A stretch of 33,564 bases of DNA, taken from positions 1-33,564 of the forward strand of contig JARXAG010000074.1 of the NCBI GenBank assembly GCA_029866055.1. Direction: 5' to 3'. The notes under the pieces are model-generated. The model saw nothing but the letters and a program-made list of their open reading frames with translations, was not told where the DNA came from and searched no databases. The position numbers and the translations under genes are program-made. Below are positions 1 through 20,375 of the stretch, piece by piece. Numbering within the stretch: position 1 is the stretch's first letter; each line of letters starts with the position of its first letter. This DNA comes from Burkholderiaceae bacterium (GTDB lineage: Bacteria > Pseudomonadota > Gammaproteobacteria > Burkholderiales > Burkholderiaceae_B).

Positions 1-273
1 GTCGTGTTGCTGTTCTTCCTGCCTTGGTTGGATTACAGCCCTGTCAAATCCATACGCTACCGTCCAGGCTGGCACAAAACACTTTACGGCATTTTCTTTG
101 CCAACTTTGTTGTCTTGGGCTATCTCGGTACACAAGCGCCAACAGACGTCTTTAACTTGCTCTCGCAAATTGGTACGCTCATTTATCTGGGCTTCTTTTT
201 CTTGATGCCTGTCTGGAGCCGTCTCGGAACCTTCAAGCCGGTCCCTGACCGCGTCACGTTCCACGCCCATTGA
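1..273 (+). CDS. petB: Cytochrome b of the bc1 complex, C-terminal fragment (5' end outside window)
   Basis: Only the last 90 codons are present and the reading frame is open at base 1. Cytochrome b is the haem-carrying, quinol-oxidising membrane subunit of respiratory complex III. The fragment has the family's C-terminal pattern: the conserved LPWLD stretch, then two hydrophobic segments (roughly residues 29-45 and 57-73 of the fragment) separated by a GTQAPTD-type loop, ending in a soluble His-containing tail. The bis-haem histidines would lie upstream and cannot be checked. Cytochrome c1 follows after about 20 bases on the same strand, as in petABC/fbcFBC operons, so the two are very probably co-transcribed. 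Family assignment is confident; the symbol follows common betaproteobacterial naming. Confidence 0.93.
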   Translation, partial: VVLLFFLPWLDYSPVKSIRYRPGWHKTLYGIFFANFVVLGYLGTQAPTDVFNLLSQIGTLIYLGFFFLMPVWSRLGTFKPVPDRVTFHAH

Positions 274-298
274 GCTTAACCTAATTTACGGAATGACC

Positions 299-1153
299 AT
301 GATCAAGAAGCTGCTTTGTGCTCTTGCCCTGCTGATCACCTGCAACGCTGCCAGTGCTGCGGGCGGCGCGTTTCCCTTAGATCGCGCACCTAATCGCATC
401 AACGAACTCACGTCGCTGCAAAACGGTGCCAAGCTGTTTGTTAACTATTGCCTCAACTGCCATAGCGCTGCATCCATGCGCTATAACAAACTGAACGACA
501 TCGGCCTGACTGACGAACAAATCCGCACCAGCCTGTTATTTACAGGCGAAAAAGTGGGTGATCTGATGATGGGGTCAGTGGGTATAAAAGATGGCAAGCG
601 GTGGTTTGGTGTGATGCCACCCGACCTCTCTGTGATGGCGCGGGCAAAATCAGTCAATGCGGGTCCAACGGGCTCAGACTACATTTACACGTACTTGCGC
701 ACGTATTATCGTGATACAAGCAAACCAACGGGCTGGGATAACCTTGCGTTTCCCGCCTCAGCCATGCCCCATGTGCTCTACGAGCGTCAAGGACCACGTG
801 AACTCACCACCATCGTGACACACGAGCACCCAGCACCGGGCGGTAAGGGCCCTGCAACCTGGGAGCGCGTCACAACGACGTATGACTCACTCGGTTACGT
901 AACCAGCAAAACCGAGGCGCTCTCAAATTATCGTGGTGCCGCGAGTACCGAGCATCAGTTCAAGAGCCTTGACACCTCGCGTACGTCTGCTTACGACAAC
1001 GATATTGCCGACCTCACAACCTTCTTGACCTGGATGGCTGAGCCTGTTCAACAAAAGCGCAAGCAAATTGGGGTTTGGGTCTTGTTGTTCTTGGGTCTGT
1101 TTTTTGTCGTCGCGTGGCGCCTGAACGCCTCGTTCTGGAAGCACGTTAAGTAG
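299..1153 (+). CDS. petC: Cytochrome c1 of the ubiquinol-cytochrome c reductase complex
   Basis: This membrane-anchored periplasmic c-type cytochrome accepts electrons from the Rieske protein and passes them to soluble cytochrome c. An N-terminal signal peptide (hydrophobic core ending near ASAAGG) precedes a single haem site, CLNCH, about 50 residues in. GVMPPDLS later in the chain resembles the region that supplies structure around the axial Met. A C-terminal TM anchor (IGVWVLLFLGLFFVVAW) ends in a short basic tail, as expected for c1. Length is normal. ATG codons occur at 293 and 299; I chose 299 because MIKKLL is the usual family start and a GGA lies six bases upstream, but 293 is possible. 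A strong intrinsic terminator closes the operon at 1166-1208. Confidence 0.95.
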   Translation: MIKKLLCALALLITCNAASAAGGAFPLDRAPNRINELTSLQNGAKLFVNYCLNCHSAASMRYNKLNDIGLTDEQIRTSLLFTGEKVGDLMMGSVGIKDGKRWFGVMPPDLSVMARAKSVNAGPTGSDYIYTYLRTYYRDTSKPTGWDNLAFPASAMPHVLYERQGPRELTTIVTHEHPAPGGKGPATWERVTTTYDSLGYVTSKTEALSNYRGAASTEHQFKSLDTSRTSAYDNDIADLTTFLTWMAEPVQQKRKQIGVWVLLFLGLFFVVAWRLNASFWKHVK

Positions 1154-1165
1154 CTTTTATTTCAG

Positions 1166-1208
1166 GGCCAGCGTCTGCTCAATGTAGACGCTGGCCTTTC
1201 GTTTTTAT
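1166..1208 (+). terminator. Rho-independent terminator of the pet operon
   Basis: An 11-bp perfect inverted repeat (1166-1176 pairs with 1186-1196, 9-base loop) is followed by a T-rich tract at 1197-1207. It starts 12 bases after the petC stop, so it very likely ends the bc1 transcript and separates it from sspA. Confidence 0.9.
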
Positions 1209-1238
1209 CTGTAGTCATTTTTAGGACGGAAATCCACC

Positions 1239-1850
1239 ATGATGGTCCTCTACTCCGGTACCACCTGCCCCTTTTCACATCGCTGCCGCTTTGTGTTGTT
1301 TGAAAAAGGCATGGATTTCGAAATCCGCGATATCGACTTATTCAATAAGCCTGAAGATATTGCCGTGATGAATCCCTACGGACAAGTGCCAATCTTGGTT
1401 GAACGTGACTTGATCCTGTACGAGTCAAACATCATCAACGAATATATTGACGAACGCTTTCCTCATCCACAGCTGATGCCTGCTGATCCAGTCATGCGTG
1501 CACGTACGCGTTTATTTTTATACAACTTTGAAAAAGAGTTGTTTATTCATGTGGCAGCGCTTGAAGACCGAGCTGTCCGCGCTGATGAAAAGCGCATGAA
1601 CGTCGCACGCGCAGCGGTACGTGATCGCCTGTCGCAGCTTGCACCTTTGCTGCTAAAAAACAAGTATATGCTTGGCGAAGAGTTCTCGATGCTTGATGTC
1701 GCGATGGCACCCTTACTTTGGCGCCTTGACCACTATGGTATCGAACTGCCAAAAACAGCAGCTCCGATTCAAAAATATGGCGAGCGTATTTTTTCACGCC
1801 CAGCCTATATTGAGGCGCTGACGCCCTCAGAAAAAGTGATGCGCCGTTAA
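1239..1850 (+). CDS. sspA: Stringent starvation protein A, glutathione-S-transferase fold
   Basis: SspA is an RNA-polymerase-associated protein with a GST fold that acts in the stringent and stationary-phase response. The N-terminal thioredoxin-like domain (about residues 1-80) carries CPFSHR at the position of the GST active site, followed by the YGQVPILV segment with the cis-Pro and by the YESNIINEYI stretch typical of GSTs. The rest is the all-helical C-terminal domain. Length (203 aa) matches the family. In family members the glutathione site is generally non-functional, so a catalytic role is not assumed. Start is MMVLYSG; the second Met (1242) is equally possible. It lies just downstream of the pet terminator and 11 bases before sspB, the usual sspA-sspB pairing. 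Confidence 0.93.
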   Translation: MMVLYSGTTCPFSHRCRFVLFEKGMDFEIRDIDLFNKPEDIAVMNPYGQVPILVERDLILYESNIINEYIDERFPHPQLMPADPVMRARTRLFLYNFEKELFIHVAALEDRAVRADEKRMNVARAAVRDRLSQLAPLLLKNKYMLGEEFSMLDVAMAPLLWRLDHYGIELPKTAAPIQKYGERIFSRPAYIEALTPSEKVMRR

Positions 1851-1861
1851 TCAACACCGCA

Positions 1862-2326
1862 ATGGCTGAAACCTCTACCAAACCATACATGATTCGTGCA
1901 CTGCACGAATGGTGCACCGATAACGGCTACACGCCTCAAATCGTGGTGCGTGTTGATCAAAATACGATGGTGCCACCTGCACACATCCGAGATGGTCAGA
2001 TCACGCTCAATATTGGCATGATGGCAACCAAGGGTCTCGTCTTAGGCAACGACAGCATCGAGTTTCAGGCGCGCTTTAACGGCGTAACTGAGAACCTGTA
2101 TATCCCGGTTGGCGCGGTGACGGCGCTATATGCGCGCGAAACCGGCGCCGGCATGGGCTTTGAGGTTGAACAGCCTAGCACTGACAATACCCCGGCCACT
2201 AACTCTTCGACGGCTGGTTTTGCAGGCGGTGCGCAGGCACAATCGCCTGAAACTGGGTCACCTTCAACTGCGCCCAGCTCTACGGCTACCGACCCGAAAC
2301 GGCCTACACTCACGATTGTTAAATAG
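1862..2326 (+). CDS. sspB: ClpXP protease specificity-enhancing factor SspB
   Basis: SspB is the adaptor that tethers ssrA-tagged polypeptides to ClpXP. Residues 1 to about 105 form the folded substrate-binding domain; YMIRALHEWCTDNGYTP and a later LYIPVGAVTALYARE strand are characteristic. A low-complexity linker of about 40 residues, rich in Ser, Thr, Ala, Gly and Pro, follows. The protein ends in RPTLTIVK, which matches the C-terminal ClpX-docking peptide known from other SspBs. It starts 11 bases after sspA with no obvious Shine-Dalgarno sequence, suggesting translational dependence on sspA. The long flexible linker with a conserved tip fits the tether mechanism. Confidence 0.93.
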   Translation: MAETSTKPYMIRALHEWCTDNGYTPQIVVRVDQNTMVPPAHIRDGQITLNIGMMATKGLVLGNDSIEFQARFNGVTENLYIPVGAVTALYARETGAGMGFEVEQPSTDNTPATNSSTAGFAGGAQAQSPETGSPSTAPSSTATDPKRPTLTIVK

Positions 2327-2364
2327 CGATATCTCTAGATAAAAAACGTTTGCCATAATTCATT

Positions 2365-2370
2365 TATAAT
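2365..2370 (+). promoter_or_regulatory. Candidate -10 element for tRNA-Thr
   Basis: A consensus TATAAT sits about 50 bases before the tRNA and is followed by a G+C-rich stretch (TCGCCGC), as seen in discriminators of stringently controlled stable-RNA promoters. No good -35 hexamer lies at 16-18 bases; the nearest TTGCCA (2350-2355) is too close. Suggestive only. A small dyad (GTTAGT-TCTC-ACTAAC, about 2384-2399) lies in the leader. Confidence 0.4.
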
Positions 2371-2417
2371 TCGCCGCTCTGTTGTTAGTTCTCACTAACA
2401 CTAGGCTGTAGTAAATT

Positions 2418-2493
2418 GCCGGAGTAGCTCAGTTGGTAGAGCAGCTCACTTGTAATGAGAAGGTCGAGGGTTCGATTCCTTTCTCCGGCACCA
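2418..2493 (+). tRNA. tRNA-Thr, anticodon TGT
   Basis: A complete cloverleaf can be drawn. The acceptor arms GCCGGAG (2418-2424) and CTCCGGC (2483-2489) pair perfectly, the discriminator base is A and the 3' CCA is encoded (2491-2493). The D-arm contains AGCTCAGTTGGTAGAGC and the T-arm has the GGTTCGATTCC motif. The anticodon stem CTCAC/ATGAG-type pairing places TGT at 2451-2453, reading ACA and other Thr codons. Length is 76 nt with CCA. Confidence 0.97.
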
Positions 2494-2509
2494 ATAAGAT
2501 CAACGGCTT

Positions 2510-2536
2510 AGCCCAACTCACAAGGTTGGGCTTTTT
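2510..2536 (+). terminator. Rho-independent terminator after tRNA-Thr
   Basis: An 8-bp perfect stem (2510-2517 with 2525-2532, 7-base loop) runs into a short T tract (2532-2535). It lies 16 bases after the tRNA CCA and isolates it from the downstream four-gene module. Confidence 0.8.
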
Positions 2537-2754
2537 CGTTTCTGCGTATTTGCTCACAAAGACTCAGAAAAAAAAATATCCCATTGATAAGTGATCCTTG
2601 AATTGTGATAATCGGGCATTCCGAATTTTTTCTATCCAGTTCATAGAAGCTTTGCTTTCTCAAAGTTAACCATCGTTATATCAGATACGCAAGCCTGTCA
2701 CAGCCAGTTTGCGAGCTTTCACAGCGACCATGCACTAGCTAGACGCAACACTTT

Positions 2755-3543
2755 ATGACAGAACAATCAACGCTTCGAAGACGGGTTATCCCACTCACCC
2801 TTTTTCCTCTTTTAGGTTTGTGTGCCGTGTTGCTGTTTGCGGCATTGTTAATTTCGTTGCGTCTTGAAAAAACGGTTGCTGACCTAATCGAGCAGAGAGC
2901 TAAGTTAATTACTTCTCAAGTGGTAGAGGTAGCTGAGGGTGGACTACGTTTCGGCATCTCGGTTGTAGATCAGGCTCCTTTAAAAAGAAAGCTAGAGTCC
3001 TTGATTGCCTCGGACAACCAGTTACTGAAAATTAGGGTCATCGGCGATCAAGGCAATCCGATTTTTACGGCTGCGCAGGGTCGCGCCACAAGCGATTTGG
3101 CTTGGCCGACTTTGCGCCGAGCATTAAGCCACGAACCTACTGCGCAGGGCGACCGATACGTCCGATCATGGAGAGACAAAAGCGAGCGGCATGTTTTGAT
3201 ACAGGTACGCGACGCCATGGGGCAAACGGGCGCGATCGTCTGGGTGGTCTACTCTAATGACAGCGCCAGAGCCACGTTTACGCAAACCATAGATCGTTTG
3301 CTAGTCGCTTGTATGTGGATGATTCTTGTGGGTGCACTAATTTTTTCTTTGTTCGTTGCAACAATTTGGTACCCCTGGGAAGAGCACCTTAACACTCATC
3401 AGTCAGCATCACGTACCGCCTCATCCGCGGTTGTAGAAAGTCCTATACCGGGGGTCTCAGTTGACACGGTCATGAAAGAAATTTCTACAGCAGAAAGAGC
3501 ACTCGATGCAATAGAACACAAAATGAGGGGGGCTCAGCCATGA
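2755..3543 (+). CDS. Two-TM periplasmic sensor-like membrane protein, no output domain
   Basis: I do not recognise this as a named gene. Visible architecture: a short basic cytoplasmic N-terminus, TM1 at about residues 11-34, a periplasmic domain of about 145 residues, TM2 at about 183-205, and a 57-residue cytoplasmic tail that ends in a helical, charged stretch. The periplasmic part (GLRFGISVVDQAPLK followed by a strand-rich KIRVIGDQGNPIF segment) resembles the PAS/Cache-like sensing domains of chemoreceptors and kinases. There is no kinase, GGDEF, HAMP or effector domain. The start is bounded by an in-frame TAG at 2740 and has no recognisable Shine-Dalgarno sequence. The stop overlaps the next start (ATGA, 3540-3543). 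Probably a sensing partner of the downstream HAMP-MFS protein; that role is inference. Confidence 0.8.
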   Translation: MTEQSTLRRRVIPLTLFPLLGLCAVLLFAALLISLRLEKTVADLIEQRAKLITSQVVEVAEGGLRFGISVVDQAPLKRKLESLIASDNQLLKIRVIGDQGNPIFTAAQGRATSDLAWPTLRRALSHEPTAQGDRYVRSWRDKSERHVLIQVRDAMGQTGAIVWVVYSNDSARATFTQTIDRLLVACMWMILVGALIFSLFVATIWYPWEEHLNTHQSASRTASSAVVESPIPGVSVDTVMKEISTAERALDAIEHKMRGAQP

Positions 3544-5636
3544 TGTTTCGGCAATGGCGGTTTTGGGTCGGATGCAGCCTGAGTGTCGTGTTAACTGTCG
3601 CAGCGCTAGTTCTTCTGGCCTCGCTTGCTCGGGATTCTGGTTCACGAATGCTCGTCTCAACGCTCGGCGAGAATTCAACAACCATCGGAACGGACATTCG
3701 CCTCAAGATAGGACGCGCCCTGGCTGCTGGAGTTCCACTAGATAAGCTGGTTGGGGTGCAACAAGTATTCGAGGCAGCGCTGGATAACAATCGGGAGATC
3801 TCGTTTTTTGCTTTAGTCAACAGCGACGCTCAAATCCTGACTTTCGCAGCGCGCAACAACGCCACTGCGCTTCAACTGTCACTGATGAAACAAGTCGTCC
3901 AGTTGCAAGAACGTACCGTCCGTAACCTGAAACAGGATGAGTCAGGGGCCCAGGTGAGTTCTAAAATTGGAGAGTCGTTCGCGGCTGTGCGTATGCCAGT
4001 TGCTGAAACACCAGAGGGTGATCCCACGGCCAGCTTGTTCATTGGTTACCCTGAGAACTATATTGACCAGCATGTGAACGCTCTCGCGACTGACGTGGTT
4101 TTCGCTGCGCTCACGGCCGTCGTCTTAGTTTTAGAATTCTTGTGGTTTGCCTCGCAATTAAAGAACGTGCGGGATGTTGGTCGATTTAGGGCTTTTGTAA
4201 GGCGACTGAGTCAGCGGAGTTTTCAATTTCGTGCCCGAATGTCCACTCAGGACTCGATGGGCGAACTCAGTCGCACCCTGGATGTTCGTCTTGATCGGCT
4301 TGCGCAACGCTTCCATAAACTGATGGAGATGATCCAGCAGTCTCCAGCCCGACTTGCAGGGACAACCGGCGCGATGCGAGTCGATATGCTCAGTTTAGGT
4401 CAACGTTTTGGACTAATCGCAGAGCCAAAAGAGTTACCTAGTCCCGTTGACATCGCCCATTTCCGGATCGCCGTTTTTTTAGTCGCCATGTCAGCAGAGA
4501 TGTGTCGGCCTTTTTTTGCTATTTACGCCGGAGATTTAGTCGGCCCAGACAATCTGTCTTCTCAACTGCTGTCGAGTATTCCACTCACTGTTTTTTTGAT
4601 TTTTTGGGGAATTTCTCAGCCTCTTGGCGTCGCAATTTTGAACAGAATGGGGGCTCGACGATGGCTGACGACCGCCGCTGTTATGGTTGGTCTTGGCACT
4701 CTCGGGAGTGCTGCGACGGATAACTGGTACCTCTTGGTTGCGTTGCAGGGTTTGACAGGGTTTTGCTTTGGTTCATTGCTGATTTGTAGTCTTGCATTAA
4801 TGATACGCAGTGGCAGCGGTGGTATGACAGCCTACCTGACCGCTCTGGTTGCCGCCGGTATTTGCGGGTCTGTGATTGGGGGCTTGCTACAAAGTAACTT
4901 TGGATACACGATCGCCTTTATCGTCGCGGCAGCATGCCCATTTTTAGCGATAGGGTTTATGTCCTCGCCAGCCAATCGTGCCGTCAAAAAGGATAGTAGG
5001 CGCCTTTCCCTGGTAGCAACGTTTAAAAACATGCTTAAAGGCAATCTCGTTAGCTTGATTGCTTTGTCTACAATCCCCGCAAGGATGATAACAACAGCTT
5101 TTCTGTTACTAATTGTCCCATTGACTATTATGCAAATGGGCGAATCTGCTGCCGTCGTGGGCCGTCTGATTCTTCTATATTTCTTTGGACTCTTTCTTTT
5201 AGCCGCAAATGCTGAGAGGCTGGCAAGTCACTGGAAAGCCTCTAAAGCGTTTGTCATTGTCGGGGCAACAGTCATTGTGTCGGCCTGCCTCACTGGGCAC
5301 GCTTTAGACGGTATCTGGGGCATGGTGGCAGCCTGCGTGTTACTTGGGGTAGGGCAGTCATTGATGGCGGGCTCACAAGGAAATCTCGCAATAAAAATGA
5401 TGGCCGAGTCAGCGCCGGCGGAGGCCAACCTTGACCTTTCGCTGGGAATCTACCGCTTCTTTGATCGTATTGGTGCCGCCCTTGGGCCCGTCTTTGCCGC
5501 TGTTTTAATTCAACAATATGGGCTGAGAGAGGCGATGCTTTGGATGGCAGTCACTCTGGGGGTTTGTACTCTGGCTTCACTGTTGACCTTTGTGGTCTTC
5601 AAAGGTCGGGGACAGTCGACTGAGGCTTTGACATGA
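3540..5636 (+). CDS. Fusion: periplasmic sensor domain, HAMP-like linker and MFS transporter
   Basis: A 698-residue protein with two joined parts. The N-terminal third is built like a receptor: TM1 at about 8-28, periplasmic domain about 30-182 (GVPLDKLVGV followed by an ISFFALVNSDAQIL strand region, Cache/PAS-like), TM2 about 183-205, then a HAMP-like segment about 206-262 containing the typical DSMGELSRTL motif. From about residue 305 to 690 there is a major facilitator domain with roughly twelve hydrophobic segments and a motif-A-like loop (LNRMGARRWL, about 367-376) between the second and third. HAMP linkers normally pass signals to kinases, cyclases or chemotaxis domains, so joining one to a transporter is unusual. 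It may be a ligand-gated or ligand-sensing transporter. Substrate unknown. Overlaps both neighbours by 4 bases. Confidence 0.85.
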   Translation: MMFRQWRFWVGCSLSVVLTVAALVLLASLARDSGSRMLVSTLGENSTTIGTDIRLKIGRALAAGVPLDKLVGVQQVFEAALDNNREISFFALVNSDAQILTFAARNNATALQLSLMKQVVQLQERTVRNLKQDESGAQVSSKIGESFAAVRMPVAETPEGDPTASLFIGYPENYIDQHVNALATDVVFAALTAVVLVLEFLWFASQLKNVRDVGRFRAFVRRLSQRSFQFRARMSTQDSMGELSRTLDVRLDRLAQRFHKLMEMIQQSPARLAGTTGAMRVDMLSLGQRFGLIAEPKELPSPVDIAHFRIAVFLVAMSAEMCRPFFAIYAGDLVGPDNLSSQLLSSIPLTVFLIFWGISQPLGVAILNRMGARRWLTTAAVMVGLGTLGSAATDNWYLLVALQGLTGFCFGSLLICSLALMIRSGSGGMTAYLTALVAAGICGSVIGGLLQSNFGYTIAFIVAAACPFLAIGFMSSPANRAVKKDSRRLSLVATFKNMLKGNLVSLIALSTIPARMITTAFLLLIVPLTIMQMGESAAVVGRLILLYFFGLFLLAANAERLASHWKASKAFVIVGATVIVSACLTGHALDGIWGMVAACVLLGVGQSLMAGSQGNLAIKMMAESAPAEANLDLSLGIYRFFDRIGAALGPVFAAVLIQQYGLREAMLWMAVTLGVCTLASLLTFVVFKGRGQSTEALT

Positions 5637-6388
5637 TGCTGCTAGATATTCCACCCCTCGCCTTGTCTGGTTCATGCCTGCACTTTTCTCATCGCCTGCT
5701 TGATTGGTCTGATCTTGAGCAGGTACTTGCCTTTCGCCGAGATATTTTTGCAGATATTGCGCCACACTTTCGTGTGCGTATCCCACCCGTTGACGATGTA
5801 CTGACGGACGAACTCAAGTGGTGCGAAAAACACTTACGGCTACCCGGCGTCACGCTTGGAGTGTTTGATGATAATCGACTCATTGCCTATGCCAGTGTTT
5901 TGCTTTCCGTAGGTAAGGGTGTCACTGACGTGTCCCAGTTGTTAGTATTTAACGAAAAAGATCTGCAACGGTCTGCTGAGTTGTCGTCCTGTATGGTTGA
6001 CAAGCACTTCCGCGGTTTGGGGTTGCAGGCTTCTTTGCTACGTTGGCGAATCGAGTTGGCCACCAAACACGAACGCTCATTGTATGTAGGCATGACCGCT
6101 TGCGGCAACTCTTACTCTCTGGGCAATATGCTTGGCGCAGGGATGACCATTCGCTGGGTCGGGCAAATTGCACCGGACCGCTGGTTTCAGGGGCTGATGC
6201 TCGATACACAGAGGCATTCGCAAGTGTGCTGGTCAGATACGTTATCGGCTGATTGGCAGGATTTTGAGGCGCAATTCGATTTATTAGGCCGCGGCTACGA
6301 GGGCGTTTCAATCGAGTTTTTAGAAGGTGCCTTGAATCCTGAGCAATACAAGGTTCGATTTTCAAAGCGTGAAGCGAGCAACACATGA
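5633..6388 (+). CDS. GNAT-family N-acetyltransferase-like protein
   Basis: A 251-residue soluble protein with the GNAT acyl-CoA site: a strand VSQLLVF, then a helix starting with the pyrophosphate loop R127-G-L-G-L-Q132 (the R/Q-x-x-G-x-G/A motif), and downstream G158-NSYSLGNMLGAG170, similar to the Asn/Ser-containing C-terminal segment of these enzymes. GNAT proteins transfer an acyl group from CoA to an amine, small molecule or protein; the substrate cannot be read from sequence. The fold also occurs in acyl-homoserine-lactone-synthase-like and autoinducer-type proteins, which should be kept in mind. Start and stop overlap the genes either side by ATGA, so it is translationally tied to the transporter and the binding protein. 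It may modify the transported ligand or the sensor; both are inference. Confidence 0.75.
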   Translation: MMLLDIPPLALSGSCLHFSHRLLDWSDLEQVLAFRRDIFADIAPHFRVRIPPVDDVLTDELKWCEKHLRLPGVTLGVFDDNRLIAYASVLLSVGKGVTDVSQLLVFNEKDLQRSAELSSCMVDKHFRGLGLQASLLRWRIELATKHERSLYVGMTACGNSYSLGNMLGAGMTIRWVGQIAPDRWFQGLMLDTQRHSQVCWSDTLSADWQDFEAQFDLLGRGYEGVSIEFLEGALNPEQYKVRFSKREASNT

Positions 6389-7437
6389 AGATATGTTGGC
6401 TTTGGTTTATCACAATGATTTGTGGGCTAGCCCATGCCGCACCACATGTGGTCATTGTCACGCCGCGAGGCGATACAAAGATGGAACAAATTTTTGAAGA
6501 AGAATTGGTTCGGCGCATCGGTGCGGTGCGCTTTACTTTGATCGTACCAGACCCAGCAAATCGCGCTTCGATGTCCGAGCTATGGGAAAAAGTTCTTAAA
6601 GAAAAGCCTGACCTGATCTACAGCTGGGGAACTCCGACCACCGTTGCACTAGCCGGTACTTACGAGTGGCCGGTTATTGCAGATATACCGATTGTCTTTG
6701 GGATCGTCGCTGATCCGCTTACTGCAAAATTAGTTAAAAATCTTGAGAGGCCCGCTCGTAATGTTACGGGTACCTCACACCTAGCGCCGTTATCCGTTCA
6801 ATTGCTTGCGCTAAACGAATATCATGCCATCAAAACTTTAGGGGTCGTCTACAACCCCACAGAAGTGAACGCGCGCAACATGGTAGAAAGTCTGAAAGTT
6901 GAGACAAAAAAGATAGGCATGACGCTTGTTGCGGAACCCGTTGGTTTAACCCCAGACGGTCGGCCCGACCCAAAAACGATCTTTGAAAAAGTTGCGCTCG
7001 TAAAAGAGCAGGGCGCCCAATGGCTCTATTTAGGGCCAGATACCTTTGTAAGCTTTACGCATCGCAGGCTGACGACCGACGCGAGCTTAAAAGCTCGTCT
7101 ACCCGCATTCTCAGCGAACGAGAGCGCGATTCGCGATGCGAACGCCCTGCTCGGTCTTTTTTCGCCTGTCGAAAACATGGCTCGTTTAATGGCTTGGAAG
7201 GCGAGCCAAATCCTAACCAATCAAGCAAAGGTTGAGGATATTCCGATAGAGACTTTGCAAAGCTTTTCGGTGTTAGTCAACATGTGTGCCGCAACAGCTT
7301 TGCAACTGTTCCCGCCGCTAGGGTTACTGAATTATGCTGCTGTTAGAGTGCCCCCGGTACCCCAAAACGCTTCTGCCGCTGCTCGAGAGTTGCGAACTCA
7401 GTCTGTGGATCACTGCAAGCCCGTGACTCTCCCCTGA
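6385..7437 (+). CDS. Periplasmic substrate-binding protein, PF04392 (TrpX-like) type, without ABC partners
   Basis: A 350-residue exported binding protein. A signal peptide (hydrophobic to AHA, cleavage probably after residue 18) is followed by two Rossmann-like lobes. VVIVTPRGDTKMEQIF, the DLIYSWGTPTTVAL segment, IPIVFGIVADP and NVTGTSHLAP are typical of the ABC_sub_bind (PF04392) family, in which several members bind aromatic amino acids or similar small ligands. Such proteins are normally followed by a permease and an ATPase; none is here, and the next gene is on the opposite strand. Its ATGA overlap with the acetyltransferase gene ties it to the sensor/MFS genes. It may present ligand to one of the periplasmic sensor domains, as LuxP does for LuxQ; that is inference. 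Confidence 0.85.
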   Translation: MKICWLWFITMICGLAHAAPHVVIVTPRGDTKMEQIFEEELVRRIGAVRFTLIVPDPANRASMSELWEKVLKEKPDLIYSWGTPTTVALAGTYEWPVIADIPIVFGIVADPLTAKLVKNLERPARNVTGTSHLAPLSVQLLALNEYHAIKTLGVVYNPTEVNARNMVESLKVETKKIGMTLVAEPVGLTPDGRPDPKTIFEKVALVKEQGAQWLYLGPDTFVSFTHRRLTTDASLKARLPAFSANESAIRDANALLGLFSPVENMARLMAWKASQILTNQAKVEDIPIETLQSFSVLVNMCAATALQLFPPLGLLNYAAVRVPPVPQNASAAARELRTQSVDHCKPVTLP

Positions 7438-7483
7438 CGTCGAGAGAAAAACGGCGTCACTCGCTCAACAACTAAATAGGCCC

Positions 7484-8971
7484 CTAGGGTGTTGTCCGCG
7501 TCGTTTTAGCAAGCTTCGTCCAAGGCAAGTCGGCTGGGTCGGCAGCCATTGGGCCCGCCGCTTTAGCCACTAAAATATGCGAGGCAATCGGCATAAAATC
7601 GGCCCGAAAGTGATTAGAGCTTTTGACGACCAATACTTTCATCGTTTCGGGATGGACACCCAACATCCGAAATAATTCGCGGTCAAGTAATTGTTTTTTA
7701 CCACTGGTAACGGCAACTAACACGCCTTCAATTTCAAGCAATGCGCAGGCGCCCAGATTAATGCGCGAACCCGTCATCATCGGCCCCTTGAGCGTAACTT
7801 TGCCATCCGACAACGCTTTAACTTTAAAAGTGCCTTGCACAGGGGCATCGCTCAGTTGCCCAGTGAAGGTCGGTACAGCGGTGCCCAACGTTGTTGTGAT
7901 CGAAGCACCCAGCCCTGCCTCATGCGCCATCGTTGCAGCGGCCGAATCAAACAGCAAACCAAGTGCGACTTTACCCGGTAGCCGCCTGCCTGCTCCTTTT
8001 TCAAGAAGGGCTCGCAACAAACCCGTTGTATTGCTGTCGCCACCAGCACCCGGGTTATCTTGTGTATCTGCAAGCATCACTGGTTTTTCATTCGTGTCGC
8101 CCAGCAAACAAGCCCGCTCGACCGCATCGCGGGCTGACAACACTTCAATCTTCCATTGAGTCGGCTCACTCACCTTCTCGTACAGTCGCTGAACCGCCGC
8201 CTCGGCACGCTCACCGTACCCCCAGACCATCGGGGCGCACTCCGCGATATCTGAGGCCGGAAATCCCATGCAAAAGCTCAAACAGGTATCAAACTCACTA
8301 TCGAGATCAAAAATCTCTTCATAGTGCGACTTCGCGGGTTCAAGCCAAGTACTTTGTGCGTTTAGGGCGATGAGGTAGGGCAGACGCCGGTAAGCGATAG
8401 GCTCTCTACTGCCTCGTTTGACCCTTCGCTTCAAGAGTGTTGCCGCAAGCTGCCCTGTCACGGCCATATCCACATGCGGGTAGGTTCGGTAGGCGGCTAA
8501 GGCATCGGCCTGAGCGAGCATGCGATGCGTCACATTTGCATGCAAGTCCAAACTCGCAACGATGGGTAAGTTCGGCCCAACAATCGCGCGTATGCGCGCG
8601 ATCAATTCACCCTCAGTGTCGTCGATATGCTCAGCCACAGCAGCACCGTGCAAGTCGAGATAAACTGCGTCAAAACCACCCAGACGGATTCCTGCAAGGA
8701 TTGAGTCGCTAATGCGCTCAAAGGCATCGCGCGTCACATGCGCGGATGGTATCGCACCACTCCACGATCCCGGTACCAGCTGCCAGCCTTCGAGTCGGGC
8801 CGCCTCGATAAACCCACCGATTGGGATGTTAACGCCGCGCAGACTATCGAGCATCGGTTGGCCTTCAATGAAGGCCACGAATGATTCGCCTCGATTAAAC
8901 GCCGCCCAATCGGCCTTGGTGGGTGCAAAGGTATTGGTTTCGTGCTGATAGCCTGCGACATAAACTTTCAA
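7484..8971 (-). CDS. M81-family metallopeptidase (MlrC-like)
   Basis: Cytoplasmic zinc enzyme of the family founded by MlrC, which cleaves linear peptide intermediates of microcystin breakdown; most relatives have unknown substrates. It opens with AGYQHETNTFAPT, the family hallmark. Counting from the chosen start, the putative metal-site residues H108 (YLDLHGA), D142 and H144 (LDLHANV) and H166 (TYPHVD) keep spacings of 34 and 22 residues that agree with the MlrC residues I remember. The C-terminal half is the MlrC-specific domain. A GTG at 8977 would add two residues but its GAGG is only one base away; the TTG at 8971 has the same GAGG seven bases upstream, so TTG is preferred. No signal peptide. 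Convergent with the four-gene module. Confidence 0.88.
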   Translation of the reverse strand: MKVYVAGYQHETNTFAPTKADWAAFNRGESFVAFIEGQPMLDSLRGVNIPIGGFIEAARLEGWQLVPGSWSGAIPSAHVTRDAFERISDSILAGIRLGGFDAVYLDLHGAAVAEHIDDTEGELIARIRAIVGPNLPIVASLDLHANVTHRMLAQADALAAYRTYPHVDMAVTGQLAATLLKRRVKRGSREPIAYRRLPYLIALNAQSTWLEPAKSHYEEIFDLDSEFDTCLSFCMGFPASDIAECAPMVWGYGERAEAAVQRLYEKVSEPTQWKIEVLSARDAVERACLLGDTNEKPVMLADTQDNPGAGGDSNTTGLLRALLEKGAGRRLPGKVALGLLFDSAAATMAHEAGLGASITTTLGTAVPTFTGQLSDAPVQGTFKVKALSDGKVTLKGPMMTGSRINLGACALLEIEGVLVAVTSGKKQLLDRELFRMLGVHPETMKVLVVKSSNHFRADFMPIASHILVAKAAGPMAADPADLPWTKLAKTTRTTP

Positions 8972-9028
8972 AATCACACCTCAGAGGGTCGCATACCCCT
9001 GAAGTGGCCAAAGGCAACGCGTAAAAAA

Positions 9029-10024
9029 TTAAGCGGCGACGGCAGCCTCGTCTGTGATCCAGCCACTGGCGAGCATTAAATCACGAGTGGGTTGATGCTC
9101 AAGGACTCCGGCCACTTTCATCAGATGCTTTGGGTTAACAATACTTGGCATATCACTTTTTGACAACAGGCCATCTTTCAAAATGGTGTCGCGCGCGATC
9201 GTGATGCAGTCCTCGTCACTTAACCCGAGTTGCCGCAAAGTACTGGTATAGCCACCCATTACGGTCTGCTCATCAAGTGTCAAATAAATATCACAGAAAT
9301 CGACCATTGATTTACCCAGGGTACAACGCAACTCTTCAGTGAGCGAGGCCCAAATATGCCCTAACAGTCGCTGAAAAAAGACCATGTGGCGGCCCTCGTC
9401 CATGACATGCTCTCGAATAATCGTATGCATCTGGCTTTCTGCTGTTTGCCCCTTCGCAATACCGTAAAGCTCTTCAGTGAAGTTGTTTTCTAAAAAGCAC
9501 AACAGCGTCACTTCAGCAAGAGCCTCATTGCCAGGACCAAGTGCCTGCTTGAAATGCTCAAGCGGCGGTTTGCGTGCATTAAAGTCAGCAGGCCCGCCCG
9601 CGTCTTGAACGACTGGCACAATTCCGGTAAAGCGTTTGATATCGGCGAGGCACTCATTTGCCACAAACGCGTGGTACATCTCGTCGGTACCAATCGCAAC
9701 CGCGACGCGTTTTGCCGAATCTGGGAGCTCGATCCCGATGCCAGCACCGGCAAGTTTGCTACACTGCGCCGTGACAAAATCGACCTCAAACGACGAAACA
9801 CCAAGAAACATATTGCAGGCGGCACGGACCGAAAACTCTTGAATTTGTTGTTTGTCGACCGCTTCAAAGCGCTCGTGGCCAGCAAAAGGTTTCAATGGAA
9901 ACACGAACATGTTCTCGGTCTTGATAGACTCAGTCAGCCGGGTGCGGGGCTTTGTGCGTACCGTTGCACGCTTTTCCCATTCGACCAGATAATTATCGCA
10001 GTACGCTTCAAATTCGATCTTCAT
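9029..10024 (-). CDS. AurF-type diiron oxygenase (p-aminobenzoate N-oxygenase-like)
   Basis: A helical, soluble non-haem diiron protein. All seven ligands expected from AurF can be placed with matching spacing: E80 (SSFEVDF), E115 and H118 (DEMYHA), E179 (FLENNF), H206, E210 and H213 (EHVMDEGRH). The intervals E80-E115 (35), E179-H206 (27) and the H-x3-E-x2-H block equal those of AurF E101-E136, E196-H223 and H223/E227/H230 as I recall them. AurF and CmlI oxidise aryl amines to nitro groups; substrates of most homologues are unknown. No biosynthetic genes or dedicated redox partner are adjacent. A TTG at 10039 would add five residues, but ATG at 10024 gives the natural start. No clear Shine-Dalgarno sequence. 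Confidence 0.85.
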   Translation of the reverse strand: MKIEFEAYCDNYLVEWEKRATVRTKPRTRLTESIKTENMFVFPLKPFAGHERFEAVDKQQIQEFSVRAACNMFLGVSSFEVDFVTAQCSKLAGAGIGIELPDSAKRVAVAIGTDEMYHAFVANECLADIKRFTGIVPVVQDAGGPADFNARKPPLEHFKQALGPGNEALAEVTLLCFLENNFTEELYGIAKGQTAESQMHTIIREHVMDEGRHMVFFQRLLGHIWASLTEELRCTLGKSMVDFCDIYLTLDEQTVMGGYTSTLRQLGLSDEDCITIARDTILKDGLLSKSDMPSIVNPKHLMKVAGVLEHQPTRDLMLASGWITDEAAVAA

Positions 10025-10142
10025 TTTTCGACAACTCAAAGAGGTTACACACCACAGCGGGTGAGAGTTTTAGAGGCACAAGGCAGCTCTTTTGAGCAGC
10101 GTGATGCACAGCGAACGCACAATGACCATGCGCCGAGGTTGC

Positions 10143-10171
10143 AAATTAGCATAGCGATCAGCAGCTTTCAA
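10143..10171 (-). promoter_or_regulatory. Candidate sigma-70 promoter for the diiron oxygenase gene
   Basis: Reading the minus strand, TTGAAA (10171-10166) is followed after exactly 17 bases by TAATTT (10148-10143). It points to the diiron oxygenase gene with a leader of about 110 bases. The match is reasonable but untested. Confidence 0.4.
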
Positions 10172-10230
10172 TCGTCGAACCGACAACCGGAGTAGGGTTA
10201 ACAGTAATTAAGAGGGTTTGCGCACAGACT

Positions 10231-10270
10231 AAAAAGGCAAACTCGCCGACTAACGTCGTGAGAGTTTGCC
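10231..10270 (-). terminator. Rho-independent terminator of hppA
   Basis: A 9-bp perfect outer stem (10236-10244 with 10262-10270) encloses a 4-bp inner stem (CGAC/GTCG). On the minus strand it is followed by TTTTT (10235-10231). It sits about 45 bases downstream of the hppA stop. Confidence 0.88.
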
Positions 10271-10314
10271 TCTGCCTACAAAGTAACCCTACTTAGTGAG
10301 ATGGGTCAAGCCAA

Positions 10315-12384
10315 CTAAGCCATGCGAACCATCAGCGGCACAATTAGCAGCGCCACAATATTGATGATCTTGATCAGTGGGTTCACTGCTGGGCCCGCCG
10401 TATCTTTGTACGGATCGCCAACGGTATCTCCAGTCACAGCGGCTTTATGCGCCTCTGAACCTTTACCGCCATAGTGACCTTCTTCGATGTACTTCTTGGC
10501 GTTATCCCATGCCCCGCCGCCTGTACACATCGAGATCGCGACAAACAGGCCCGTCACGATCGTACCCATCAATAAACCGCCAAGCGCTTTCGGACCTAAG
10601 ATCAGGCCCACGGCCACGGGCACCACCACGGGTAAGAGCGATGGAATAATCATCTCTTTAATTGCTGCAGTCGTCAGCATATCAACGGCTTTGTCGTACT
10701 CGGGCTTGCCCGTGCCATCCATGATGCCTTTGATGTCACGGAACTGGCGACGCACTTCTTCGACCACTGCGCCAGCGCAACGACCCACGGCTTCCATCGC
10801 CATCGCACCAAACAGGTAAGGGATCAAGCCACCGATAAACAAGCCAATAATGACCATGTGGTCAGACAGGTCGAAACTGATCTTCAACCCTTTTGACTCA
10901 AGTTGATGTGTGTAGTCAGCGAACAGCACCAAGGCAGCCAAACCAGCCGAGCCAATTGCATAGCCTTTGGTCACGGCTTTCGTGGTGTTACCCACGGCGT
11001 CAAGTGGGTCGGTAATGTCACGGACTGACTGTGGCATACCAGCCATTTCAGCGATACCGCCTGCGTTATCTGTGATGGGGCCGTAGGCATCAAGCGCCAC
11101 GATAATACCTGCCATCGACAACATCGATGTTGCAGCAATCGCAATACCGTAAATGCCGCCTAACCAAAACGCTGCGTAAATTGCCGCGCAGACAAACAAA
11201 ACTGGGTAAGCGGTCGATTTCATCGACACACCCAAGCCTGCGATGATATTCGTGCCATGGCCTTGGCTTGACGCTTGGGCAATGTGTTTAACGGGTGCGT
11301 AGTCTGTGCCGGTGTAATACTCGGTTACCCAGACCAACGCTGCTGTCAGCACTAAGCCCACAACCGTGGCGCCGAACAAGCGCATTTTGGCGCCGGTTTG
11401 AAAGCCAAAGTCGGCCAAGGCATTGTCTGGCATTATCCAGTTTGTTGCGAAGTAAAAGGCAACTAAAGAGATCAGACCTGCAATGATCAAGCCTTTGTAC
11501 AAGGCTGGCATCACGTTTTTCATGCCCGGGGTGGCTTTCACAAAAGAGCAGCCAATGATCGAGGCAATGATCGAAATCCCACCAAGCACCAACGGATAAA
11601 TCACCGCTTCGGCCGTGGCAACTTTAACCATCATCGCGCCCAGCACCATCGTCGCAATTAACGTCACCGCGTAGGTTTCAAACAAGTCAGCCGCCATACC
11701 CGCGCAATCGCCCACGTTATCGCCAACGTTATCAGCGATCACTGCAGGGTTTCGTGGATCATCTTCTGGGATACCCGCTTCGACCTTACCCACCAAGTCG
11801 GCGCCAACGTCAGCGCCTTTGGTAAAAATGCCGCCGCCAAGGCGTGCAAAGATTGAGATCAAGGACGCGCCAAAGGCCAAACCGATCAAGGGATGCAGGG
11901 TTGCCGACAGGTCACCGGCCTTGCCCACTGACATCAAATACATATAAAACACGCCAACACCAAGCATGCCCAAGCCCACCACCAACATACCGGTAATCGC
12001 GCCGCCTTTGAAGGCAACATTGAGCGCCTCATTCATGCCCACCGTTGCCGCTTGCGCTGTACGGACGTTGGCACGCACCGAGACATTCATGCCGATGAAG
12101 CCGCAGGCGCCTGACAACACGGCACCTACCACAAAACCCACTGCGGTCGTGTAATCGAGAAACAGTGCGATCAAAATCGTCAGCACCACGCCCACGATAC
12201 TGATGGTTTTATATTGACGCGACAGATAGGCGCTTGCGCCCTGCTGAATCGCGTCAGCGATTTCCATCATCTTGGCGTTACCGGTACTTTGATTAAGAAT
12301 CCAGGACCTCACTACAAAGCCGTATACGACTGCGAGAACTCCGCAGCCAAGGGCGAAATAGAGGCCCAACTGAATGTTGCTCAT
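10315..12384 (-). CDS. hppA: Membrane-bound proton-translocating pyrophosphatase
   Basis: Integral membrane ion pump that couples hydrolysis of pyrophosphate to cation export. With 689 residues and about 15-16 hydrophobic segments it is of normal size. The catalytic loop is intact: DVGADLVGK, then [30 protein letters not shown], and near the C-terminus a second Asp-rich loop ([18 protein letters not shown]). At the potassium determinant the sequence reads [10 protein letters not shown], with Lys where potassium-dependent enzymes have Ala, so it should be the K+-independent, H+-pumping type. The ATG has TAGGAG nine bases upstream. A strong terminator follows. It is transcribed away from the soluble pyrophosphatase gene, with 175 bases between the two starts. 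Confidence 0.96.
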
Positions 12385-15731: not shown

Positions 15732-16032
15732 TGTTGTCTTCTCCTGTTCGAACTTAACACCGCGTGTCTGCGCACCAAGCGCAACAAGCATAAGCGTAAC
15801 CGATGGCCATTTCGCGCAAGGATGAACACTAAAACGCACGGATGCTGAGAAACACCCGCTCACGCACCCCAAAGGACTAATTCGGGTTGATTGTGACTAA
15901 AAACTCTGTCAACGTTTGGCTACCTTTTTGTGCGGCGACTGCCCAAGTGTCAAAACACTCGTAGCCACCGATCTCTTCCACCCATCGACCTCCTCTGCCG
16001 ATTTTGAGCCCAAGTCATTCACACCAAACTTT
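15732..16032. other. Divergent intergenic region without a supported gene
   Basis: About 300 bases between the divergent MaoC-type and MscS-type genes. It holds the MaoC Shine-Dalgarno sequence (minus strand, about 15740-15745) and in-frame extensions of both genes that lack good starts. I see no convincing promoter, hairpin or small gene. Confidence 0.5.
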
Positions 16033-17493
16033 ATGAAAACGAATAACCAAACCATCTTTGCGCTTTCACGACCGTTTTTTTTAGCGTTGCTGGCACTCAA
16101 CCTTGGTCTGTTACTTTGGCTAAAACTACTCACGGACAATTTTCTTAGCTGGAACGCCGTTGACTTAAACAAAGAGACTCTGTTTCAGTTGAAGTCTGTA
16201 CTGGCAATTGCCCAATTTGCCTTGGTGGGTCTAAGCCTTGACCAGATTTTGCGCAAAGCGATCATAGGTTTTAACGTCCACTCAGAAAGCAGCCACGTGC
16301 CAGCCATTTTGGTACAAGTGCTCACCGTGACAATTTTCATCGTGACCGGAATCGCCGCTTATATCGGGCTCTACGACCATCACCTGAACTATTTGTTCGC
16401 CTCGATCGGCGCCTTAAGCGTTGGCATCCTCTACATTTTGAAAGATGTGGGGCATCAAGTCATTTGCGGCATCACCCTTCAAGCTGACCGCATCGTCTCG
16501 GTGGATGACTGGCTTGAGGTTAAGGAAGGCGGCGCTACAGAATACCTACAGGTGGTTGAATTGGATTACCGCATGGTGGTTTTGCGAAACGATACTCGAC
16601 AGTTGATCCGGGTATACAACCATCATTTTAGTGAAATGCACTTTATTAACTTGTCCAAGCAAAAACCGGGGGTGGCTGCGCCGCGCAAACTCGAATTTAG
16701 GCTGAGCTCCGCCAATAACCCTGAACGCGTGCTGCGCATCATGGATTTAGCGCTTAAGCACGTCGTTCACCATAACCATGAATTTCTAAATGAGTTTTCA
16801 TGCCATGTCTCGAAAATCGACGAGGGTCGCGTCACCTATTTAATTTGGTACAGAGCCGACATCGACACGGCTCCGTTCGAAACAGAGGGCATTATTTTAT
16901 TAGTCCTATCCCGCTTTTTAAAATCTGCCGGTATCAATCTGAATCGGCTGTTCAACAACCCTGGACACACCAACCACAGCCAAGCACAAACTCGTCTGCT
17001 CGATTGCTATGGACTAGGAATTTTAAAACTGCTCGATAATGAGCAGGTCGTCACGATAGGTCAATCGGTCAGCGTACTGCATTATCATGCCGACCACCAT
17101 TTGATAGAGAAAGGCGCGCAAGAAGACTGGATGTACATCATCTCTGAAGGCTGCTTAGAGGTGAAATTAGCCGATCAAACTGGTGAGATGAAGGTTGTTG
17201 CCACTCTGTGGCCCGGTGACTTTGTGGGTGAAATGTCGATGCTCACGGGCGCACCGCGTGCCGCTGACGTCTTTGCGAAAGCTGACACCGTGCTCGTACA
17301 GATTACCAAAGAGGATATTGCGCCCCTGCTCGACTCTAATCCCAAGTTGGTCAAACAGTTTTCAGATATTTTGGCGCAGCGCGTGGCCCAGAATGAAGTG
17401 TTTGCCAACTCTGACGGCCAATCTGCTCGCGTCGCTGAAGAGTCAAAAAGCATCACTGCAAAAATTTTGAATTTCTTTTTTAAGAAAAACTAG
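16033..17493 (+). CDS. MscS-family mechanosensitive channel with C-terminal cyclic-nucleotide-binding domain
   Basis: A 486-residue inner-membrane protein. Hydrophobic segments lie at about 9-31, 52-72 and 88-112. A pore-helix region (SIGALSVGILYILKDVGHQV, about 124-143) runs into the MscS beta domain (ADRIVSVDDWLEV), and an alpha/beta vestibule follows. From about residue 340 to 460 there is a cNMP-binding domain; the phosphate-binding cassette is visible as GDFVGEMSMLTGAPRAADV with the conserved Glu and Arg. Such channels are proposed to be gated or tuned by cyclic nucleotides instead of, or as well as, tension. The frame is open upstream to a TTG at 15916, but the first ATG (16033, MKTNNQ) is preferred; there is no clear Shine-Dalgarno sequence. 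Confidence 0.88.
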   Translation: MKTNNQTIFALSRPFFLALLALNLGLLLWLKLLTDNFLSWNAVDLNKETLFQLKSVLAIAQFALVGLSLDQILRKAIIGFNVHSESSHVPAILVQVLTVTIFIVTGIAAYIGLYDHHLNYLFASIGALSVGILYILKDVGHQVICGITLQADRIVSVDDWLEVKEGGATEYLQVVELDYRMVVLRNDTRQLIRVYNHHFSEMHFINLSKQKPGVAAPRKLEFRLSSANNPERVLRIMDLALKHVVHHNHEFLNEFSCHVSKIDEGRVTYLIWYRADIDTAPFETEGIILLVLSRFLKSAGINLNRLFNNPGHTNHSQAQTRLLDCYGLGILKLLDNEQVVTIGQSVSVLHYHADHHLIEKGAQEDWMYIISEGCLEVKLADQTGEMKVVATLWPGDFVGEMSMLTGAPRAADVFAKADTVLVQITKEDIAPLLDSNPKLVKQFSDILAQRVAQNEVFANSDGQSARVAEESKSITAKILNFFFKKN

Positions 17494-19394: not shown

Positions 19395-20375
19395 TTAGTT
19401 TGCCTTGATCCCCGCGGTTTTAATCACTTGGCGCCATTTCTCGATTTCAGTGGTGAGCAACTTGGTATACGCCGCCGGCGGGCCACCCGCCACGTCATAG
19501 CCAAGCGCTGTGACGCGCTCTTTGATCGCCGGGTCGGCCAACACTTGATTGACAGCGGCATTCAATTTTGCAACCACCTCTGGCGGCATCCCAGCGGGCC
19601 CCAACAGACCCCAGTGGCTACTGCAATCCACGCTGGGCAGGCCACTTTCAGCAAACGTCGGTACGTTGGGCAACGCGGCATTACGCTGGGTGCCTGTGAG
19701 TGCGAGTGCGCGCAAGCGCCCTGCCTCAACGGCTTGCCGTACCGAACTAATCCCCGAATACGTCAGCGGCACTTGACCCGCTAGCACCGACGACAACGCC
19801 TCACCCGTACCCTTGTAGGGCACATGGGTGATCGCTATACCCGAAGCGATATTGAACAGCTCACCCGCCATATGTGGTGAAGATCCGTTTCCGCCCGAGC
19901 CATACAACAAGCTTTCTGGCTTGGCTTTGCCTAGGGCAATCAACTCGGCAAGCGTCTGTGCCGGCACCGAAGGGTGCACCACCAAAATCACCGGTGCCAC
20001 GGCCATATGCACGATAGGAGTCAAGTCTTTCATCGTGTTGTAAGGCAGCTCGGTACGCAACCCAGGGTTCACATAAATCGATGAATCGACCATCATCAAG
20101 GTGTACCCGTCGGGCGCGGCTTGCACCACGATTTGAGACCCGATGATGCTCGAAGCGCCCGGTTTGTTTTCAACCACCACCTGCTGCCCCAGTACTTCAG
20201 AGAGCTTTGGGGCAATCACGCGGGCCAGAATATCTGTGCCACCACCGGGCGCAAAGGGGATCACCAAACGCAATGACCTCGTGGGCCAAGTCTGAGCCTG
20301 TGCAAAGGTCGCCGAAAAGAGTAAAAGGGCAGCCAATCCGGTGCGAAGTGCGGTGAGAGCACTGAAACGTGTCAT
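19395..20375 (-). CDS. Bug/TctC-family tripartite tricarboxylate transporter binding protein (first of three)
   Basis: A 326-residue exported solute-binding protein. The signal peptide ends in FAQA (cleavage after about residue 27). Hallmarks follow: LRLVIPFAPGGGTDILAR, a ligand-loop motif, then LGQQVVVENKPGASS, DGYTLMMVDSS, and ITHVPYKGTGEAL. Bug proteins bind carboxylates, amides or amino acids and deliver them to TctA/TctB membrane subunits, which are not in this window. ATG has AAAGGA six bases upstream. It diverges from the Gfo/Idh/MocA gene across 226 bases. Confidence 0.93.
   Translation of the reverse strand: MTRFSALTALRTGLAALLLFSATFAQAQTWPTRSLRLVIPFAPGGGTDILARVIAPKLSEVLGQQVVVENKPGASSIIGSQIVVQAAPDGYTLMMVDSSIYVNPGLRTELPYNTMKDLTPIVHMAVAPVILVVHPSVPAQTLAELIALGKAKPESLLYGSGGNGSSPHMAGELFNIASGIAITHVPYKGTGEALSSVLAGQVPLTYSGISSVRQAVEAGRLRALALTGTQRNAALPNVPTFAESGLPSVDCSSHWGLLGPAGMPPEVVAKLNAAVNQVLADPAIKERVTALGYDVAGGPPAAYTKLLTTEIEKWRQVIKTAGIKAN

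Follow-up and report, generated by a model that had tools for sequence, protein, structure and literature searches.

A co-inherited bacterial module of a periplasmic sensor, a sensor-MFS transporter fusion and a PF04392 binding protein, possibly a ligand-gated exporter

A periplasmic sensor protein (gene A), a second sensor fused to an MFS transporter (gene B) and a PF04392-type periplasmic binding protein (gene D) form a co-inherited module, which was found in the window (the whole stretch of 33,564 nucleotides analysed here) together with a GNAT acetyltransferase (gene C). It is possible, although we put the chance somewhat below even, that A, B and D work as one ligand-controlled transport unit, a putative ligand-gated exporter. 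In the window, the genes lie head to tail on the forward strand in the order A-B-C-D (Table 1); the start of each gene overlaps the stop of the preceding one by 4 bases, and all four use ATG as the start and TGA as the stop codon. Comparison with two relatives gave dN/dS values of 0.14-0.24 for all four genes, which indicates that each of them is under purifying selection. The open reading frames, the hydropathy profiles and the family matches confirm the tight four-gene operon (sensor, sensor-MFS fusion, GNAT and PF04392 protein) that was proposed in a preliminary description of this DNA.

Table 1. Genes and protein regions of the module (positions in the window)
Feature	Position	Strand	Description
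Gene A	2755..3543	+	262 aa; TM, PDC/Cache-like periplasmic sensor, TM, short cytoplasmic helix; without output domain
Gene B	3540..5636	+	698 aa; sensor, HAMP-like linker, MFS transporter
Sensor part of B	3573..4151	+	residues 12-204: TM1, A-homologous periplasmic domain, TM2
HAMP-like linker of B	4152..4313	+	about residues 205-258
MFS domain of B	4452..5609	+	about residues 305-690
Gene C	5633..6388	+	251 aa; GNAT
Gene D	6385..7437	+	350 aa; periplasmic PF04392 binding protein, signal-like N-terminus

The distribution of the module was followed by searches with B. A search with B alone matched 21 of 61 genomes, although only part of these matches are genuine B proteins; L017-L022, which are weak matches in six genomes (E 1.7e-5 to 8.1e-4), were left out of the B loci, and L024-L029 are second pieces of loci already counted. 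At 1e-25, the B profile matched 22 of the 399 genomes in the order sample; at 1e-40, it matched 5 of 369 genomes in the class sample and 6 of 299 in the phylum sample, with the window's own genome included in each count. All 22 B genomes of the order were used except G222, which has D and looks like a near copy of G185. A plasmid search with B returned 15 records (11 from Azospirillum, 3 from Nitratidesulfovibrio and 1 from Vibrio), five of which entered the locus set, and none of the 68 records from a further search was added. In total, 51 B loci were collected, and A, B, C, D and signalling domains were mapped in them with our own profiles; these loci are not independent, since 13 come from the window's genus and several others belong to a common family.

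D lies no more than 4 kb from B in 47 of the 51 loci, either adjoining it or with A, the GNAT gene or a SpoIIE gene in between. The four loci without D are two that run into contig ends (L045 and L046), one with room for the gene in which none was found (L111), and one whose B is an MFS protein without a sensor (L077). Run at 1e-45, the D profile matched at 25 places, spread over 21 of the 399 order genomes. Every one of these places is at a B locus, and 23 of them are non-seed matches, the seeds being those of the window and G057. The D clade is thus present in 21 of the 22 B genomes of the order, and G034, the one missing, has a divergent D. These genome searches scored few first-look candidates per genome (at most three for B and five for D, in many cases from a much larger number), and copies away from B may therefore be missed. 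If the genes were mere neighbours, relatives of D and C would be expected elsewhere as well, and the finding that all D matches sit at B loci points to co-inheritance. The expectation that the four families adjoin in many genomes was thus borne out, and the proposed refutation, that homologues elsewhere are not neighbours, failed. A chance neighbourhood of genes with unrelated functions can practically be dismissed in view of D near B in 47 loci, the 25 of 25 D matches at B loci, the purifying selection on the four genes and the co-inheritance in unrelated families. A separate observation is that at L117:893-5003 (G157) B is no longer one open frame but several pieces, and A and D can still be read there.

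The two sensors were compared with each other and with known folds. Hydropathy analysis places two TM segments in A (15-33 and 183-201) and two in the N-terminal part of B (12-30 and 186-204), the latter followed by a multi-TM region from residue 310. A matched none of the Pfam families above threshold, the Cache families included. By hhalign, A aligns with the first ~200 residues of B at a probability of 96.9 and an E-value of 1.9e-10, from which it follows that A and the N-terminal sensor of B are homologous. The predicted structure of A has a mean pLDDT of 67.4 (moderate confidence), and the order of elements in this model (helix, two strands, helix, three strands) is what we take to be a PDC/Cache domain. 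Foldseek searches with the model matched the sensor domains of WalK/YycG, KinD and CitA; the target TM-scores are 0.59-0.63 for WalK/YycG (7dud and 4ywz) and 0.62 for CitA (2v9a), with E-values of about 1e-3 to 8e-3, and roadblock-type proteins (p14/MP1 and MglB) match at E-values similar to those of the sensor domains. The top match was a WalK-YycH integrative model (E 2.1e-8). In B, the Cache assignment is based on the homology to A and on one sub-threshold sCache_3_2 match; the predicted structure of B was unusable (mean pLDDT 33.9).

Another finding is that the module carries its sensors in pairs. A separate A gene stands beside B in 37 of the 51 loci, among them L075, L079, L090 and L092, in which the B sensor shows up only at the N-terminal end of a single long B match and has no A-profile match of its own. 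In nine loci (L043, L078, L093, L095, L097, L099, L114, L115 and L116), two tandem sensors precede the MFS domain in a single B polypeptide, and these loci have no separate A within 2.5 kb of B; additional A-like sensor stretches are found at a greater distance in L093, L097 and L099, where they adjoin a SpoIIE gene. The sensor side is cut by a contig end in L094, L096, L110 and L111. With the sensorless L077 set aside, at least two sensors are present in all 46 loci open to judgement. Gene fusions are a classic sign of two proteins working together, and the tandem-sensor fusions, taken with the separate A genes, argue for an association of A and B. The preliminary description had assigned ligand reception to one or both periplasmic sensors. 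A and B do both contain sensors, which are homologous; a heteromeric sensor, putatively formed by A and the N-terminal part of B, is better supported than the looser wording, given that both sensors are found in one polypeptide in nine loci, and the fusions are taken here as evidence, not as proof.

Between the sensor and the transporter of B lies a linker, for which the same description had proposed a HAMP domain. For the N-terminal half of B in the window, Pfam gave no HAMP match, and in only one of 12 B-family members the Pfam model gave a match below threshold (E 0.0067). On the other hand, when the B-family profile was compared with receptors that carry a genuine HAMP domain, and which are neighbours of the module in relatives, TM2 and the linker (window residues 166-257) aligned at a probability of 94.5 and an E-value of 7.8e-8. 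The HAMP assignment thus holds by profile-profile comparison and stays sub-threshold by Pfam. Two acidic residues in TM2 of B, ahead of the linker, are strongly conserved: E199 in 40 of 40 members and D185 in 39 of 40.

The C-terminal part of the window's B matches MFS_1 with an E-value of 2.8e-22. The nearest solved relatives of this domain are VMAT/VAChT, NorA, EmrD, EmrB and EfpA (best E 9.2e-11; distant), which are exporting proton antiporters. Motif C, in TM5, is an antiporter signature, and a motif C-like stretch (CGPSIGG or CGAAIGG) occurs in many members of the B family, with CGSVIGG in the window. The arginine of motif B, in TM4, appears as a feature of DHA transporters in part of the text of PMC10425836. 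This TM4 arginine is present in 47 of 50 B-family members. In the window clade (the window, L032 and L033), Gln403 takes its place, and a leucine replaces Gln418 of the family, the common residue being kept in 47 of 50 members. This implies that the H+ coupling may be altered or lost in the window clade. Searched as a single sequence against NCBIfam, the window's B gave weak matches, all far below cut-off and with exporters and importers or exchangers mixed: 2A0115 aromatic acid/H+ symport (E 0.0016), 2A0111 oxalate/formate antiport (E 0.001) and the exporter FslB (E 0.00066). The MFS domain is a putative antiporter-type exporter, nearest, though distantly, to the drug:H+ antiporters.

D matches PF04392 with an E-value of 4.5e-23 (82.4 bits against a cut-off of 25.9), and its hydropathy profile shows an N-terminal signal-like segment only. 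The nearest structures, all distant, are 3lkv, 6hni and 3lft. These structures hold Phe, Tyr and Trp according to part of the text of PMC6816091. The TrpX model gave the window's D 88.5 bits, below its cut-off of 390. Within the D family, E160 and N162 are each conserved in 43 of 44 proteins and E246 in 40 of 43. Two residues of CD0873 were placed on D by reading the alignment, for which the shift from chain to paper numbering had to be inferred: Glu-263 of CD0873 aligns with Asn245 of the window's D, one residue ahead of the conserved Glu246, and Tyr-279 aligns with Val262, which is Val in the window clade and Tyr in 35 of 43 D proteins. D is thus a putative binder of a ligand of the aromatic-amino-acid class, as a weak pointer from distant relatives, and the Val at the Tyr-279 position suggests that the ligand of the window clade may differ. 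On the Nitratidesulfovibrio plasmid, the genes annotated as ABC transporter substrate binding protein and MFS transporter overlap, and the D encoded there is a distant PF04392 member (E 2.8e-7). The window's genome also encodes a second PF04392 protein (G000:C9:14683-15543), which at 258.6 bits is a far better match to the family than the D of the module.

C scores 20.1 bits against Acetyltransf_1, just under the cut-off of 20.7, and shows no TM segment in its hydropathy profile. GNAT proteins of the C subfamily were present in 12 of the 51 loci, Azospirillum included (32% identity to the window's C over 168 residues), and were not found in the other 39. A, B and D are thus the core of the module, and the GNAT is a recurrent optional part. 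The GNAT had at first been seen in L032 and L033 only, and the idea of a one-off passenger was ruled out by its recurrence at other B loci. With the C profile at 1e-12, seven places were found in seven of the 399 order genomes, all at B loci; since all seven matches are seeds of the profile and at most seven candidates were scored per genome, the test says only that nothing else scored in the 399 genomes reached 1e-12. The best PDB matches of the GNAT profile are serotonin/arylalkylamine N-acetyltransferase (E 2e-5, weak), and further weak matches are yncA and the phosphinothricin and aminoglycoside 6'-acetyltransferases. Weak as they are individually, the pointers from D, the MFS domain and the GNAT agree and suggest aromatic amino acids or amines as the putative cargo or ligand.

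Several other features of the window were recorded. A gene on the reverse strand at 7484-8977 converges on the module and encodes what is presumably an M81/MlrC-like peptidase; a copy at least 90% identical stands beside the module in L032 and L033, and a counterpart in G015 (90%) has no module alongside. A tRNA-Thr gene lies at 2418-2493. With a view to a possible mobile island at this tRNA gene, the locus was compared with G015, which gave neither wider synteny nor a tRNA; a phage search for the module gave no match at the sensitivity applied. The gene at 15916-17493 (forward strand) encodes a membrane protein with a C-terminal region resembling a cyclic-nucleotide-binding domain (weak profile match at 17101-17394); its sequence resembles that of an MscS-type channel to which a cNMP-binding domain has been fused. 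Three look-alikes of Bug/TctC-type periplasmic binding proteins were noticed by eye amid metabolic genes, at 19395-20375 (reverse), 21631-22713 (forward) and 28841-29812 (forward), and no TctA/TctB pair for them was noticed by eye in the window.

Signalling genes were searched for both in the window and near B in its relatives. In the window, our profiles for kinases, SpoIIE and cyclases gave no match, no response regulator was seen by eye, and a SpoIIE search of the window's genome gave no match. In the relatives, a kinase, SpoIIE phosphatase or cyclase gene lies near B in 18 of the 51 loci, one of which has two of these kinds: six loci carry a divergent gene whose product combines a Ser/Thr kinase with dCache and HAMP, seven a SpoIIE phosphatase, and six a cyclase, in five cases joined to dCache. 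Nine of these signalling-neighbour proteins were assigned with Pfam and the remainder with our own profiles; these loci are not independent, as four genomes of a single family account for the six kinase loci and one genus contributes three of the cyclase loci. In 33 loci, the window included, the flank examined holds none of the three, some flanks being shortened by contig ends. The absence of kinases, cyclases and response regulators noted in the preliminary description thus holds for the window, whereas those 18 loci do have a kinase, SpoIIE or cyclase gene. In the 22 B genomes, SpoIIE gave 57 matches; seven are at B loci, each being the best of its genome, and in G033 and G386 it is the sole SpoIIE of the genome. 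A profile of the dCache-HAMP receptor (A8) gave 12 full-length matches below 1e-50 in the same genomes, of which ten are at B loci, eight of these ten being the profile's own seeds; the four non-seed full-length matches divide into two at B loci and two elsewhere (G314:C8 and G423:C2), and four weaker partial matches lie away from B loci. The dCache domains of the partner proteins were inspected by eye for an amino-acid motif, and no clear match to it was seen.

Further neighbours were observed in single groups of loci. The richest module (L097:113-9177) runs in one direction and comprises a two-sensor B, D, a GNAT, an alanine racemase, two more sensor proteins and SpoIIE; an alanine racemase gene lies near B in 4 of the 51 loci. 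In seven genomes of the same genus (L035, L036 and L038-L042), a gene of one family lies behind the distant copy of the module, on the opposite strand; the member of this family in L035 matches Formyl_trans_N. A family of ABC transporter genes lies near the module in L042, L088, L089 and L091; the L088 member (L088:9371-11233) is a fused ABC_membrane-ABC_tran protein of exporter type, and the other three are its homologues.

Based on the results presented above, a mechanism for the putative ligand-gated exporter may be proposed. Once D, a soluble periplasmic protein, has caught its ligand, which may be alpha-amino-acid-like, it would dock on a platform of two sensors, A and the N-terminal one of B. 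The resulting change would travel along TM2 and the HAMP-like linker of B to open or close the MFS domain of the same polypeptide, which, as an antiporter-type pump, would export the ligand or a compound made from it. Where the GNAT is present, it may N-acetylate the cargo or the ligand in the cytoplasm, and in other lineages a neighbouring receptor that has a kinase or cyclase as its output, or a SpoIIE phosphatase, probably reads the periplasmic state as well. In its boldest form, which we regard as doubtful, the module would represent a new class of receptors that have a transporter as effector and would be the first binding-protein-dependent MFS system, with a heteromeric Cache-like sensor pair that is loaded by D and gates the pump through HAMP, with ligands resembling aromatic amino acids or arylalkylamines, and with the kinase, PP2C phosphatase and cyclase as swappable outputs. 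Transporters are usually controlled through their amount; the tandem-sensor fusions and the co-inheritance suggest instead a direct control of a pump by a receptor, and also a binding protein that works with an MFS carrier. To our knowledge, binding proteins are paired with secondary or ABC carriers in ABC, TRAP and TTT systems only. Its spread over lineages is wide enough, and its parts are sufficiently clear, to make the idea testable in culturable bacteria.

The direction of transport may be the reverse of that proposed. In a binding-protein-dependent MFS importer, D would deliver its ligand for uptake, and A with the B sensor would be a docking platform, like the small membrane subunit of TRAP systems. 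The co-inheritance of D with B would suit such an importer, as would the weak match of B to the aromatic acid/H+ symporter model, and the loss of the motif B arginine in the window clade would fit a changed coupling. We nevertheless consider it unlikely, since the MFS domain groups with exporting antiporters, most of the family keeps both the motif B arginine and the motif C-like stretch, and a HAMP-like linker would be superfluous for docking; we also know of no binding-protein-dependent MFS. The glutamine in place of this arginine is a difficulty for proton-coupled export in the window clade, and it leaves room there for an importer as well as for a transporter that acts mainly as a sensor.

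In the latter case, that of a transceptor, the MFS domain would mainly sense and signal, as in UhpC, an MFS protein that acts as a sensor and signalling module; the output would be the neighbouring kinase, phosphatase or cyclase, and net transport would be secondary or absent. The 18 loci with such a gene in the flank, the seven of 57 SpoIIE matches that lie at B loci as the best of their genomes, and the ten of 12 full-length dCache-HAMP matches at B loci (eight of them seeds) are in line with this. It is, however, improbable in our estimate: the other 33 loci, the window's among them, show no such gene in flanks that are in part shortened by contig ends, SpoIIE was not found in the window's genome, only two of the four non-seed dCache-HAMP matches are at B loci, and in B it is the MFS domain itself that occupies the output position of a HAMP receptor. 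A pairing of a GNAT with an antiporter-type MFS is common in detoxification, and no member of the GNAT subfamily turned up away from the module in the order sample, all matches being seeds of the profile. If the module served this purpose, D would only set the amount of ligand for the sensors, and a toxic amine or amino acid analogue would be cleared by the MFS protein and also inactivated by the GNAT. That is quite improbable, given that the GNAT, not found in 39 of the 51 loci, is no core component and that the alanine racemase near B in four loci points to amino-acid metabolism, not to drug clearance. The ligand-gated exporter thus remains our tentative reading.

No description of this set of genes was found among the papers listed by searches of an open-access collection, and no named system found there contradicted the earlier statement that none is known with this set. 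Among known systems, TRAP and TTT transporters likewise combine a periplasmic binding protein, a secondary transporter and a small membrane protein; in the present module, however, the transporter is a DHA-near MFS protein, a Cache-like sensor takes the place of the small membrane protein, and PF04392 is the family of the binding protein. Membrane subunits of the DctM/DctQ or TctA/TctB type are absent, the membrane protein being MFS_1 and A being unmatched by families. The PF04392 family is shared with ABC systems such as TrpX/CD0873, and in the TrpXYZ operon the PF04392 protein is accompanied by an ABC permease and an ATPase. In the window's module, in contrast, no permease or ATPase was recognised by eye among the ORFs of window positions 1-12000, and the 25 order-sample matches of the D clade all stand beside B.

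LuxP-LuxQ and TorT-TorS, which are binding-protein-dependent receptors with HAMP and a kinase output, resemble the module in joining a periplasmic binding protein, a periplasmic sensor and HAMP; in B, however, a transporter and not a kinase follows the HAMP-like part, and two homologous sensors occur together. UhpC-UhpB and CbrA are transporter-kinase systems, in which, as in the module, sensor and transporter modules lie within one system. CrbS is described as another transporter-kinase system in part of the text of PMC5715377. In these systems, input comes from the transporter and output from the kinase, whereas in B the sensor stands before the HAMP-like part and the MFS domain after it. 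The DHA1-type MFS exporters VMAT, NorA and EmrD are the nearest solved relatives of the B transporter domain, and B differs from them in its N-terminal receptor of ~300 residues and in the binding-protein gene that lies near it in 47 of the 51 loci. In general, the parts of the module belong to known families, and the combination of a receptor, a HAMP-like linker and an MFS transporter with a binding protein fits no type of system known to us.
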